A DNA stretch of 64,000 bases from Candidatus Neomarinimicrobiota bacterium (GTDB lineage Bacteria > Fidelibacterota > Marinisomatia > Marinisomatales > TCS55). A program made the translations under genes and the position numbers. The notes beneath the pieces are model-generated. The model had not been told where the DNA came from. It ran no database searches and worked only from the letters and a program-made list of their open reading frames with translations. Below are positions 15,853-19,258 of the stretch, piece by piece (within the stretch, counting starts at the first letter, position 1; every line of letters starts with the position of its first letter). The DNA is taken from the NCBI GenBank assembly GCA_018651745.1, contig JABIDL010000026.1, positions 31,243 through 95,242 on the forward strand, read 5' to 3'.

Positions 15853-17232
15853 CTACTGAACTGTTAAAATAGATTGAATTGAAGGTAAAGATCTTTGTGA
15901 AGATCCCCATGATTCCATAAAATAATTTGAATCAACTATTGAACTCACAAAATTCTTTTCCGCCAGTGTATAGTAAACTCTCTCTTTTTTAAATCCAGTG
16001 AATCCAGAAGAAAGCAATGAATCCTGTTCAAATATTTCAAGTTCTTTCCATAATGACTTTCCATATTTAATTTTACTATTATGCCAAAAATCATCATCAT
16101 TATTTAATTCTGAATAATTATTAAGAGCGTAGTTTAGGTTTGTTTTTTTCTCTTTATAATCAAAACCAAGTTGTCTCCAATATTTATTTCCTGTTTCTAA
16201 CGCAAAATTGAGTTTTCGATTTATTCCGATATCAAAATATTCTAAATTTCCATACATAAGTAAAATACTTGAATCAGGAATATTTATTGTATTATTAGCC
16301 CATTGATACTTCATTAAATCACTTATTTTATTCCATTGTTTAACATTTAAAGTATCACTTTTTGAATTATTGTTAATTTTTAAATCCATCCATTCTTTTG
16401 AAGATGAAAGCTCAAATAGATTTCCGATAAATAAAATAAGCGATAAAATTGTTGTAGCAATAACACCAGCTTTCACCATGTCCTGCCCTCTCACACCGCC
16501 AATCAGTTCTGGCTTTTGCGAAAGGTATGCGCTGGCGGCAAAGAATTCTTCACCGATGAGGGTATAATCACATGCCGTAACAAAGAATGGAATCTGCGCT
16601 TGCGAAGCTGTTCCGGCAATTTGAATGGCACCGATTGAATTTCCTGTTTCCGCCAAGATTAAAGATTCCGCATAAAATTTTCCCATATACAAACAGGCAG
16701 CCGGTTTTTCACGAACCATAATTCCGTTAACGCCGGCCGCATAGGCAAATTGGTCATCTGTCAAATAATGCACCATATCTTCGTGAAACATGTCCGGACG
16801 GCCTTCCATCATATAAGATTCTCTACATGCTTCCCGTGCGGCTTTCATAACAATAGATCTTGACACTGGAACATTAAGAGAAGTTTCATATCGTGCAGTC
16901 ATTTTTGAAACATGACCTAAAACGATCACGCCTGCAACTGTTTCCACTTGATCCATATCCATAATTCCCGGTACAAATAAAACAGGCTTTCCCATTTCTG
17001 TAGATCTACCAACAGCTTCTTCAACTGCTTTCAATCCGGGAATGGGACGTAAATAAAATTCTTCTCCGCGTTCTGCCATGCGAATATTATAGAGTAATGT
17101 TGCTCCAATTACGACAATAGCAATAAACATTACAATTCTATTTGGATTGAAAAGCGGATGCCCCGCAGACCAATAGACTAGGAACGCAAAAGTCAACCCT
17201 CCGGTTATCATCCAAAATTGTTTATCCTTCAC
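15853..17232 (-). CDS. DUF6754-like membrane protein with an anomalous C-terminal extension
   Basis: 459 residues starting at a GTG that overlaps the end of the preceding gene. Two N-terminal membrane segments (about 8-24 and 33-49), a soluble domain (about 65-260, with PVLFVPGIMDMDQVETVAG and GRPDMFHEDMVHYLTDDQFA) and a third membrane segment (about 268-285) match what I recall of DUF6754 proteins found near MutL-type ATPases. Residues from about 290 to the end are different: rich in Asn, Lys, Tyr and Ser, encoded by visibly more AT-rich DNA (about 15.85-16.39 kb) and without membrane segments. That tail may be a fused or inserted module. The family name is from memory. Confidence 0.68.
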   Translation of the reverse strand: MKDKQFWMITGGLTFAFLVYWSAGHPLFNPNRIVMFIAIVVIGATLLYNIRMAERGEEFYLRPIPGLKAVEEAVGRSTEMGKPVLFVPGIMDMDQVETVAGVIVLGHVSKMTARYETSLNVPVSRSIVMKAAREACRESYMMEGRPDMFHEDMVHYLTDDQFAYAAGVNGIMVREKPAACLYMGKFYAESLILAETGNSIGAIQIAGTASQAQIPFFVTACDYTLIGEEFFAASAYLSQKPELIGGVRGQDMVKAGVIATTILSLILFIGNLFELSSSKEWMDLKINNNSKSDTLNVKQWNKISDLMKYQWANNTINIPDSSILLMYGNLEYFDIGINRKLNFALETGNKYWRQLGFDYKEKKTNLNYALNNYSELNNDDDFWHNSKIKYGKSLWKELEIFEQDSLLSSGFTGFKKERVYYTLAEKNFVSSIVDSNYFMESWGSSQRSLPSIQSILTVQ

Positions 17233-17560
17233 TCGCTTCTCCTTCCATTTCGGAATTTACTTTATCCAGACGTTCAATTTCTGATAAAAGAAATTCTACC
17301 GTATCCGGTTCTTCAAAAAGTTCTGCGGCTCGATAATAACCATCCGCTTTTATAAAAGAATTTACAATCGGGCCAAAAAATACCATAGCATGACTGCCAA
17401 GCAATGCTAATGGTTTTGTCATTTCCAGAAAAAAAATAGCCGGTGTTACAAATCCCGAACGCTGGATTCGTTTAGCCAATCTTGTGATGAATTCTTTATC
17501 GGGATTGGATAAAGATATTGGATTAGGAGTCAATGGATTGGGATTGGAAGTTTGGATCAT
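17222..17560 (-). CDS. Small conserved protein of the MutL-like cluster
   Basis: 112 residues. The conserved-looking core (about 28-95) contains RSGFVTPAIFFLEMTKP, GSHAMVFFGPIVNSF and an acidic amphipathic end, suggesting a peripheral membrane or membrane-inserting small protein. The first 20 or so residues (MIQTSNPNPLTPNPISL) are translated from the right end of the deleted IVS-like repeat element at 17521-17615 and are low-complexity. The native start was therefore probably replaced, and a start nearer the core (for example a TTG within RLAKR) cannot be excluded. Its stop overlaps the DUF6754-like start. Confidence 0.6.
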   Translation of the reverse strand: MIQTSNPNPLTPNPISLSNPDKEFITRLAKRIQRSGFVTPAIFFLEMTKPLALLGSHAMVFFGPIVNSFIKADGYYRAAELFEEPDTVEFLLSEIERLDKVNSEMEGEASEG

Positions 17561-17615
17561 TAAGGCTGCCTTTTAATAAAATTAATTTTCTTTTCCATCG
17601 TCTTTATCCTAATCC
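17521..17615 (-). pseudogene. Internal-deletion relic of the four-helix-bundle (IVS-like) element
   Basis: On the minus strand this 95-bp segment carries both ends of the intact element at 18769-19233 with the middle missing. The left end GGATTAGGATAAAGA is followed by an ATG and the first codons of the four-helix-bundle gene (ATGGAAAAGAAAAT). After about 20 bases the right end GATCCAAACTTCCAATCC appears, and the segment closes with ATTGACTCCTAATC. What remains is a 12-codon reading frame (MEKKINFIKRQP). The terminal arms still form a 9/10 inverted repeat (17606-17615 with 17535-17544). Confidence 0.75.
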
Positions 17616-17625
17616 ATTTTCCATT

Positions 17626-18753
17626 TTAGTCTGTTTCAACCATTTCCAAATTTGCCCGGGGAATTTCAACATTTTCTCCATCAATTTCAATGATAGCAAC
17701 CCGCACCATAGTTTCGGATTCCATTTTTCTCAAATCAGCAGGAAGGTCTATGACTTTTCCCATTCTTCCAAAATAAGGAGCGCGAATAACACGAACAAGG
17801 CTTCCGGCCTGGATTCCTTCGGACGCATTGGCATCTTTGTGATCACCCTTTAGTTGATCTTTTGTTAACGGAACAACAATTTCAGGGCGAATGACACCGG
17901 CACGAATTTGCGTTGCGCCATTAACAGAAGCAAATTTTCCGCGATGTTCCTTTAATAAATCAAATGTTTGCGAACCCATTCGGATTTTTCCATATCCTTC
18001 GGTTAGGATTAGCGATGTAACCAAATCTTCCGAACCCGTAATGGCAACACCGAGGGTATATCCTAAAATATCTTCTAAATCGAAATAATTAAATCCGCCG
18101 ACAACGACTCCTGCCACTTTCATTTGAATCGCTTTTTTGTACGCGTTTAAACTTATAAAAGAACCGCCAACAATAATTTTGCCTTCTAATTCTGATGTGA
18201 TCATTTCTTCAGTGATTTCATCTTCTCGAGTACCTGTTACTATTTCAAGATTTCCTCTGCTTTCCCCGCCGATTCCAAAAATTCCCTGAATAAATACACC
18301 TTCAGATTCAATGATAACGCCTTCTTCCGGAAGGACTTTTTTAATGGTTCCGCTCATGTATGCGTCAATTTCAACGGGAATGGGCGCTTCGCGAATCACG
18401 ACCTGTCCCGTGGTATCAGAAATCACTTCTATGGTCCCATCGACAGGAGCGATTACATTGGATTTGAATAAACCGAATATTCCTTTTGTTTCAGCAATCA
18501 TTTCATCTTTACTGACTGCCGTGCCTTCTTTTACAATCATTGCTTCTTTTACATCATCCGCATCAATATTTAATTGGTTAGCAACATTGACCATTTGGAC
18601 ATTTCCGGGTAAATCCGTTTTTGCTACAATATCATCGGGTGTAACATTTGAACCTTCTTTAACTGTTACCGTGCCTTTTAAAGGCAAACGTCTCTCTTTA
18701 TCGATCTTCGTTTCGTGTAAAACTTTGAGTCCGGGTGTGTATGCGTGGGCCAT
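17626..18753 (-). CDS. Conserved lipoyl-like / KOW-like protein of the MutL-like cluster
   Basis: 375 residues, predicted soluble. The N-terminal 180 residues are beta-rich with repeated short hairpins of lipoyl/hammerhead type (LPLKGTVTVKEGSNVTPDD, NVIAPVDGTIEVISDTTGQV, YMSGTIKKVLPEEGVIIES). No lipoylatable DKA-type lysine is clear, so this may be a carrier-like fold without the cofactor. A middle alpha/beta region (GKIIVGGSFISLNAYKKA, VAGVVVGGFNY) and a C-terminal KOW-like barrel (SLVRVIRAPYFGRMGKVID) follow. It lies between two copies of the IVS-like element and is co-directional with the MutL-like ATPase gene. No known function. Confidence 0.72.
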   Translation of the reverse strand: MAHAYTPGLKVLHETKIDKERRLPLKGTVTVKEGSNVTPDDIVAKTDLPGNVQMVNVANQLNIDADDVKEAMIVKEGTAVSKDEMIAETKGIFGLFKSNVIAPVDGTIEVISDTTGQVVIREAPIPVEIDAYMSGTIKKVLPEEGVIIESEGVFIQGIFGIGGESRGNLEIVTGTREDEITEEMITSELEGKIIVGGSFISLNAYKKAIQMKVAGVVVGGFNYFDLEDILGYTLGVAITGSEDLVTSLILTEGYGKIRMGSQTFDLLKEHRGKFASVNGATQIRAGVIRPEIVVPLTKDQLKGDHKDANASEGIQAGSLVRVIRAPYFGRMGKVIDLPADLRKMESETMVRVAIIEIDGENVEIPRANLEMVETD

Positions 18754-18788
18754 AAATTCAGTAGATTAGATTAGGAGTCAATAGATTC

Positions 18789-18798
18789 GGATTAGGAT
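18789..18798. repeat. Right arm of 10-bp inverted repeat flanking the four-helix-bundle gene
   Basis: GGATTAGGAT on the plus strand (ATCCTAATCC on the coding strand), the exact inverse of the left arm at 19224-19233. It lies 17 bases past the four-helix-bundle stop codon. Confidence 0.8.
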
Positions 18799-18814
18799 TG
18801 GGAGTCTGGATCAT

Positions 18815-19216
18815 TTAGGCGACTTCTCCATAATCTGATATTTCTTCACTTATTTGATTCATTGCCGATTGTGATAATTTTGTCAGCATTTTAACAATGG
18901 ATAATAATAATTCTTTACCATCAACAATTTCATTTTCATTTAATAAGTTTTTCACGACGATCACATCTAGGCAGGATGCACATTCCAAAGCAGATGCCCT
19001 TGCAATTTCAAAATAACGTTTTCTATCCTTTGGATAAGATTTACCATTTCCTTCCGCTATATTTAATGGCACAGAAATTGACGCTCTATCCAATTGATCT
19101 GCTACATTTTTGTTTTTCCTAATTGGTTTCCAAAATGAATTCAACCATTCAATAAACTGAAGTGAAAATTGATAAACCTCTAATTTCTCATGATTAAAAT
19201 ATATTTTCTTTTCCAT
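18815..19216 (-). CDS. Four-helix-bundle protein (23S rRNA intervening-sequence type)
   Basis: 133 residues of the S23/IVS four-helix-bundle family. The signatures EKLEVYQFSLQFIEWL, VADQLDRASISVPLNIAEGN and RKRYFEIARASALECASCLD are visible, and four helices fill the chain. Homologues lie in intervening sequences of 23S rRNA genes, and the diversity-generating-retroelement accessory protein Avd shares the fold; the molecular role of stand-alone copies is not settled. Here it sits inside a protein operon, between the MutL-like ATPase gene and the lipoyl/KOW gene, flanked by an inverted repeat. Its final codons and stop (GTCGCCTAA) adjoin the right end of the element. Confidence 0.9.
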   Translation of the reverse strand: MEKKIYFNHEKLEVYQFSLQFIEWLNSFWKPIRKNKNVADQLDRASISVPLNIAEGNGKSYPKDRKRYFEIARASALECASCLDVIVVKNLLNENEIVDGKELLLSIVKMLTKLSQSAMNQISEEISDYGEVA

Positions 19217-19223
19217 ATTCTTT

Positions 19224-19233
19224 ATCCTAATCC
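19224..19233. repeat. Left arm of 10-bp inverted repeat flanking the four-helix-bundle gene
   Basis: GGATTAGGAT on the minus strand, 7 bases before the four-helix-bundle ATG. The 12-mer GGATTAGGATAA that contains it is repeated in direct orientation 25 bases upstream at 19247-19258, where it encodes the end of the MutL-like protein. Confidence 0.8.
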
Positions 19234-19246
19234 TTATCCTATGCCC

Positions 19247-19258
19247 TTATCCTAATCC
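19247..19258 (-). repeat. Direct repeat GGATTAGGATAA forming the MutL-like gene end
   Basis: The 12-mer GGATTAGGATAA occurs here and at 19222-19233 on the minus strand. This copy supplies the last three codons (Gly-Leu-Gly) and the TAA stop of the MutL-like gene, so the element boundary and the gene end coincide. Confidence 0.7.

Follow-up and report, generated by a model that had tools for sequence, protein, structure and literature searches.

The 23S rRNA intervening sequences (IVSs) of Coxiella and other bacteria carry genes of a single protein family between terminal inverted repeats (a 28-bp stem in Coxiella), are excised by RNase III, and have been called selfish and suspected of being mobile (PMC4990558). 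The window analyzed here, a 64,000-nucleotide stretch of a Candidatus Neomarinimicrobiota bacterium (contig JABIDL010000026.1 of assembly GCA_018651745.1; genome G000 below), raises the question of whether a gene of this family can also travel outside of rRNA. A preliminary description, made from the sequence alone, had noted what looked like two copies of one IVS-like element, one intact and one deleted, in adjacent gaps of one operon, and had proposed a mobile form that enters protein operons without a transposase of its own. Are these two segments really copies of one element, does that element move, and what does it consist of?

Two segments of one operon on the window's minus strand, 465 bp (18769-19233) and 95 bp (17521-17615) long, have both ends in common. 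The left end reads GGATTAGGATAAAGA, then ATGGAAAAGAAAAT (at 19216 and 17598), and the right end runs from ATGATCCA(A/G)ACT(C/T)CCAATCC up to TTGACTCCTAATC (at 18781 and 17533), with a repeat finder pairing the two copies as direct repeats over 48 nt (83%), 58 nt (74%) and 29 nt (90%). Used as a query against the genome, the 465-bp segment recovered both halves of the 95-bp copy at E=7e-8, and the resemblance is therefore not a matter of chance. The longer copy holds, as had been claimed, a full four-helix-bundle gene of 133 aa (18815..19216, minus strand), which matches PF05635 (E=4.7e-21, 75.4 bits vs a cut-off of 33.8, residues 10-112) and TIGR02436 (E=1.1e-19, 70.7 bits vs a cut-off of 24), and which is surrounded by a perfect 10-bp inverted repeat, GGATTAGGAT / ATCCTAATCC. 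This repeat is a portion of a longer imperfect inverted pair with 27-nt arms, 74% complementary and 401 nt apart. The shorter copy (about 17520..17615, minus strand) retains both ends, i.e. the left word, the ATGGAAAAGAAAAT start and the right arm, and only 12 codons between them, a remnant frame (MEKKINFIKRQP, 17563..17598, minus strand) whose stop overlaps the start of the next gene (TAATG).

The window ends are GGATTAGG-type inverted arrays around the intact gene. The left arm (GGATTAGGATAAGGGCATAGGATAAGGATTAGGATAAAG, 19220..19258, minus strand) overlaps the last codons of the upstream gene, and the right arm (CTCCCAATCCTAATCCGAATCTATTGACTCCTAATCTAATC, 18764..18805, minus strand), recognized by repeat search and in the predicted RNA fold, is an inverted copy of the left words. 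Where the preliminary description saw the same fixed ends twice, the sharing of ends stood, but the ends themselves proved to be degenerate, locus-specific word arrays that match each other; likewise the left GGATTAGGATAA at 19258 doubles as the last codons of the upstream gene (Leu-Gly-stop). The predicted RNA fold of the window element closes the left arm on the right arm, with a total fold that is not unusually stable (z=-0.83); the words here are nearer 6 nt, and the right arm has no significant periodicity. Elsewhere in this genome, the search with the 465-bp segment returned no further strong copy of these ends, and the expectation of additional copies was borne out in relatives instead. 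A weak left-type end at C19:35936 (E=0.04) corresponds to GGATTAGGATTAAGGTTAGGAATATGGAAA between two genes (L008, G000:C19:35936-35966) and looks like a solo left end of the same family. Only one further PF05635 gene is present in the genome, at C27:69926 (L002, G000:C27:69926-70204), with different flanks and a frame broken after 88 codons; its flanks are mirror-image words too (GTGAATAGTGAACAG on the left, CAGTTCACCGCTCACAG on the right, with inverted GTGAACAG-type words on either side), and it adjoins a gene resembling a NusG-type transcription antiterminator. Rfam gave no match on three loci, and phage records gave none.

The operon, read on the minus strand, comprises a MutL/GlmL-like gene (PF13941, 19247..21088), a middle gene of 375 aa with no family above its cut-off (17626..18753), a gene of 112 aa (17222..17560) and a DUF6754 gene (15853..17232). 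The gap between the GlmL-like gene and the 375-aa gene (gap 1) holds the intact copy, and the next gap of the same operon (gap 2) holds an older, deleted copy of a mobile four-helix-bundle cassette. Both copies appear to have altered the ends of neighboring operon genes, with the last residues of the upstream protein (EGLG-stop) coming from the left arm of the intact copy, and the N-terminus of the 112-aa protein (MIQTSNPNPLTPNPIS) being encoded in the right arm of the relic. The middle gene was detected in 16 of 40 genomes of the window's family, and the two gaps vary among relatives. In gap 1, G000, G012 and G034 have a full copy and G013 has one with an internal deletion, and no four-helix-bundle gene lies there in G001, G002, G003-G008, G035, G036, G038 and G039. 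In genomes with a filled gap 1, it is mostly the left arm that encodes the end of the upstream protein; at clean empty sites the upstream gene ends in ..LKV-stop or ..IKV-stop, and word-like sequence at the end of this gene in G001 and G038 may represent scars. In gap 2, the 95-bp relic of G000 has a diverged counterpart in G001, G013 has a copy without its N-terminus, and G012 has the left array alone; in other genomes the gap is empty or filled by another repeat. After occupation of gap 2, the following protein takes its N-terminus from the right arm (MIQTSNPNPLTPNP in G000 vs METAVKTNIPQSL in G002). An unrelated repeat with CCACGAATGACACGAA lies in gap 2 of G034 and G039 (L068, L066), as well as near the C27 gene (L002), and may belong to another short repeat family entering these gaps.

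Between G000 and G034, the synonymous distance (dS) was 0.68 for the four-helix-bundle gene, 2.17 and 2.06 for the two large neighbors, and 0.76 for the 112-aa gene. As the value is low relative to the large neighbors and similar to that of the 112-aa gene, transfer at the window locus can be called likely but falls short of proof, and the similar distance of the 112-aa gene weakens synonymous distance alone as proof of horizontal transfer here. The gap-2 copy of G013 is nearest to the gap-1 copy of G034 (pS 0.30 vs 0.63-0.69 for two host genes), a difference that is significant against both host genes (p=5e-5 and 2e-6) and not significant against the 112-aa gene; this closeness points to movement between gaps and genera. 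Values of dN/dS were 0.14-0.18 for the intact window gene vs the G012 and G034 copies, and 0.14-0.22 among full copies of the window's subfamily, which shows, as judged from substitution patterns, that the protein is under purifying selection in this subfamily.

The observation in the window is confirmed, and it generalizes strongly. PF05635 genes occur in 123 of the 245 genomes of the window's phylum, with up to 27 copies in one of them. The 120-nt left flanks of 170 distinct genes from many phyla (from the window's family and phylum, and from GTDB species that were scanned) were each aligned with the right flank in inverted orientation, and 513 ORFs from these loci served as controls. The median score was 34, vs 18 in control ORFs (p=3e-51), 18 for mismatched left/right pairs (p=2e-61) and 17 in direct orientation (p=5e-23), and 122 of the 170 genes exceeded the control 95th percentile, with 28% not above it. 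Tandem periodicity was detected in 265 of 432 flanks of a 216-gene set vs 105 of 899 distant control flanks, and the array period is 7 nt in most cases and frequently 8 or 14. With 10% C and 28% G, left arms are poor in C; they are ~37 nt long, and the distance from the arms to the gene is ~23 nt on the start side and ~10 nt on the stop side. The words differ from locus to locus, e.g. GGATTAGG in the window, TTAATTG at guaA-glmS, GAAATTGG in G221, and GGGAGTA or TCAGGAG in Nostoc plasmids. Arrays, mostly with a 7-nt period, also flank ~12% of the distant control genes, and these are possibly solo arms of lost cassettes.

Terminal inverted repeats are present in the sequence and, in the predicted fold, form a stem around the reading frame, and predicted RNA pairing across the 216 genes was stronger for own arms than for mismatched arms (-35 vs -23 kcal/mol, p=1e-34). 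Where proteins in shared gaps are 30-70% identical, an arm matches its own partner better than a crossed one (p=6e-6 and 3e-9); since same-gap pairs mix orthologues with independent insertions, what these comparisons show is locus-specific matching rather than proof of compensation. Both neighbors are co-directional with the four-helix-bundle gene in 177 of 216 cases, vs 62 of 106 controls (p=1e-5). Some gaps have been entered repeatedly, among them guaA-glmS, where the cassette is present, absent or deleted among relatives, and those before purB and sufC (names read from sequence), of which the latter has different subfamilies with different words in two genomes.

Movement itself is seen most directly in the conjugative plasmids of filamentous cyanobacteria. 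There, the gap between two genes adjoining trbI/virB10 is empty and 13 nt long in Aulosira and Tolypothrix, and holds a cassette in Trichormus and Scytonema, with the 1.4 kb upstream of the site being 98% identical between Trichormus and Aulosira. A second plasmid operon has two neighboring gaps, of which one or the other holds a cassette in some Nostoc plasmids and neither does in others, an arrangement that seems much like that of the window. Three more plasmid sites have empty relatives at 85-92% identity, so that the empty and filled plasmid sites span 85-98% identity overall. Within Nostoc sp. C052, a site is filled on plasmid D and empty on plasmids A and B. The junctions vary, with duplications of ~3-5 bp (TAAT at site 1, ATG at site 2B, and up to 5 bp at site 2A, where it is ambiguous with the array), removal of ~8-15 bp of target at sites 3, 4 and 5, and, in one lineage (G214/G221), an outer inverted repeat with an 8-bp duplication. 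As the junctions differ between sites, no single insertion mechanism is shown. At site 4, the upstream gene obtains a new stop codon from the left arm. Elsewhere, the plasmid cassette family includes a 170-bp internally deleted copy and solo ends, decay products like those of the window; decayed or internally deleted cassettes of this family were observed in plasmids of Nostoc sp. C052 (L344, L356), with a TACTCATTACTCAT array beside the decayed cassette of L356.

For gene pairs at different sites, the fraction sharing a word is 67% when the proteins are >=80% identical, 44% at 70-80%, 20% at 60-70% and 4% at 40-50%, with a background of 5%; word sharing thus rises with protein identity, and the word therefore travels with the gene. 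Cassette copies recognizable at the DNA level occupy many sites in G221, G214 and G220, and presence is sporadic among close relatives. The cassette is gained and lost whole at exact sites, occupies many sites with a word of its own, and decays either through internal deletion or down to solo arms. The 83-bp direct repeat that encloses the L284 copy was considered as a target duplication, but a second C-terminal gene fragment downstream makes a tandem duplication the better reading. At L204 and L202 (G192, G193), the cassette has on both sides the same 42 bp from the 3' end of the upstream gene, a possible duplication at insertion at one locus.

Our preferred reading, to which we assign a probability of about three in four, is that the element is a compact, non-autonomous mobile cassette, consisting of an S23/IVP gene between inverted short-word arrays, and inserted in operon gaps, mostly in operon sense. 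Most of what the preliminary description proposed is carried over into this reading: the unit contains no transposase or reverse transcriptase, and no other gene lies between the arms, mobility is evident from exact empty and filled sites in plasmids up to 98% identical, and same-ended copies at different sites recur along with internal deletions like that of the 95-bp copy. The empty sites that it proposed to look for were found at the two window gaps as well as in plasmids, and the outcome it had named as speaking against it, i.e. no further copies in relatives, did not occur.

Several other explanations deserve consideration. An origin of the 95-bp segment by chance or recombination, with arms that are mere simple-sequence noise, is hardly credible, being refuted by comparison with relatives. 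The window arms by themselves match only moderately (score 28 vs a control 95th percentile of 26, equaled by 1.7% of mismatched pairs), but the genome search retrieved both halves of the segment, its relic is common to G001, other relic types are found in G013 and G012, and the mirrored-flank signal across the 170 genes is strong. It is improbable, although less so, that these are old, vertically inherited operon genes with regulatory stems that were repeatedly lost and have had no recent mobility. The same gaps are filled in several genera (guaA-glmS, before purB, the GlmL gap), purifying selection would fit, and for the window locus alone an ancient insertion with repeated loss would agree with the similar synonymous distance of the 112-aa neighbor; set against this are the scar-free empty sites in nearly identical plasmids, the same word accompanying similar proteins at different sites, and the different subfamilies and words in the one gap before sufC.

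Movement in trans by a transposase or a reverse transcriptase is a more serious contender, in two forms that we regard as equally unlikely. One is passive transport by ordinary transposons, with gene and arms in miniature elements moved by a DDE transposase in trans. One outer frame, GTAACCGTTCACGGA..TCCGTGAACGGTTAC, surrounds units with different words in G214, G221 and G220; 8-bp duplications (GAAATAAC, TTAAAATC) accompany it at two sites, and it also exists gene-free. Its GTAA ends and 8-bp duplications resemble those of the IS66 family, and the units in these three genomes seem to ride on an IS66-like miniature element. This frame was seen neither at the window copies nor at the plasmid sites, where junctions are variable and often involve small target deletions, and the arms are present with or without it; a fixed terminal inverted repeat with a fixed-length target duplication, as in a DNA transposon or MITE, was found only in the outer frame of G214 and G221. 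Miniature elements framed by GTAACCGTTCACGGA..TCCGTGAACGGTTAC were observed at L330, L332, L334 and L327 (G214, G221), of which L330 carries no four-helix-bundle gene. The outer palindrome AACCGTGAACGGTTAC has 11 matches in three genomes, nearly all inside such elements (none was seen at L333), which rules it out as a general genomic repeat. The other form is a retroelement moved in trans by a reverse transcriptase, like the Avd relatives of diversity-generating retroelements. The resemblance of PF05635 to Avd (PMC10053308) and the small, variable junction duplications or deletions would fit retro-insertion, yet RVT_1 was found in only 34 of 245 genomes of the phylum, was not detected in G000 at E 1e-8, and is not listed for many-copy carriers such as G012, G042 and G109. 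A retro-mechanism is therefore not generally required, and a general reverse transcriptase in trans as a requirement was rejected, with most carrier genomes lacking RVT_1.

Among known systems, the 23S rRNA IVSs of Coxiella, Leptospira, Salmonella and others (PMC4990558) share with the cassette the S23/IVP frame, an inverted-repeat stem (here a predicted one), sporadic occurrence and the lack of a transposase. They differ in location and in their ends, the cassettes residing in protein-operon gaps (the window copies lie among protein genes of one operon, not inside an rRNA gene) and in plasmids, with arms that are locus-specific and mostly 7-nt word arrays. Insertions in rRNA genes of CPR bacteria also carry 23S_rRNA_IVP, the domain-known frames in them being mostly homing endonucleases, and thus place the same protein family in an insertion, differing by their rRNA location (PMC11270868). 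PF05635 and Avd have related four-helix-bundle folds (PMC10053308), and the solved PF05635-family relatives 2RLD and 2GSC, found by sequence, are listed with five chains each; the retroelements themselves differ in requiring a reverse transcriptase, whose domain (RVT_1) was not detected in the window's genome. MITEs and IS66-like miniatures are likewise small and non-autonomous with inverted ends, and one cassette lineage lies in such an outer frame, whereas the window and plasmid cassettes are without fixed terminal repeats or fixed duplications. Unlike REPIN/RAYT systems, the cassette arms are word arrays and not REP palindromes. Heptanucleotide words in both stem arms are also known from the P6b region of the Nostoc trnL intron, where they have been replaced several times independently and are of unknown origin, in that case within a group I intron and without a four-helix-bundle gene (PMC4476775). 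The intergenic TAACTGA heptamers of Beggiatoaceae, tandem 7-nt words in gaps with a patchy distribution across phyla, differ in being almost all direct, of one word and with no linked gene family described (PMC4679880). Among open PubMed Central papers, we found no published account of array-framed four-helix-bundle cassettes in protein operons. We regard the cassette as a relative of the intervening sequences of 23S rRNA that has moved into protein operons.

How such a unit might persist and spread can be sketched as follows. In the operon mRNA the arms would pair into a stem with the gene in its loop, an arrangement shared with the intervening sequences of 23S rRNA, and RNase III probably cuts the paired arms, which would make the insertion tolerable. 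A pentameric, Avd-like protein might act on its own RNA or DNA, promoting copying or insertion with host enzymes, and the words could grow and change through slippage, with hairpin copying or selection keeping the arms matched. A bolder version, which we find tempting and nevertheless doubtful, would make the cassette a mobile element of a new class. Its spread would be driven by the small, pentameric protein, binding nucleic acid, with neither a transposase nor a recombinase nor a reverse transcriptase in the element; the word arrays would be remade on site and not preserved as fixed ends, and the 23S rRNA IVSs would be a special case.

PF05635 genes are common, yet they are annotated merely as four helix bundle proteins. 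A cassette with mirrored word arrays explains this large, scattered gene family, and connects the intervening sequences of rRNA with insertions in protein operons. Whether rRNA IVSs are mobile, a question asked for decades, becomes directly testable, with exact empty and filled plasmid sites in culturable cyanobacteria. In the window operon as well as at plasmid sites, the cassettes appear to alter the ends of neighboring operon proteins, and a gene until now known mainly as a passenger of rRNA genes travels between bacterial operons as a cassette.
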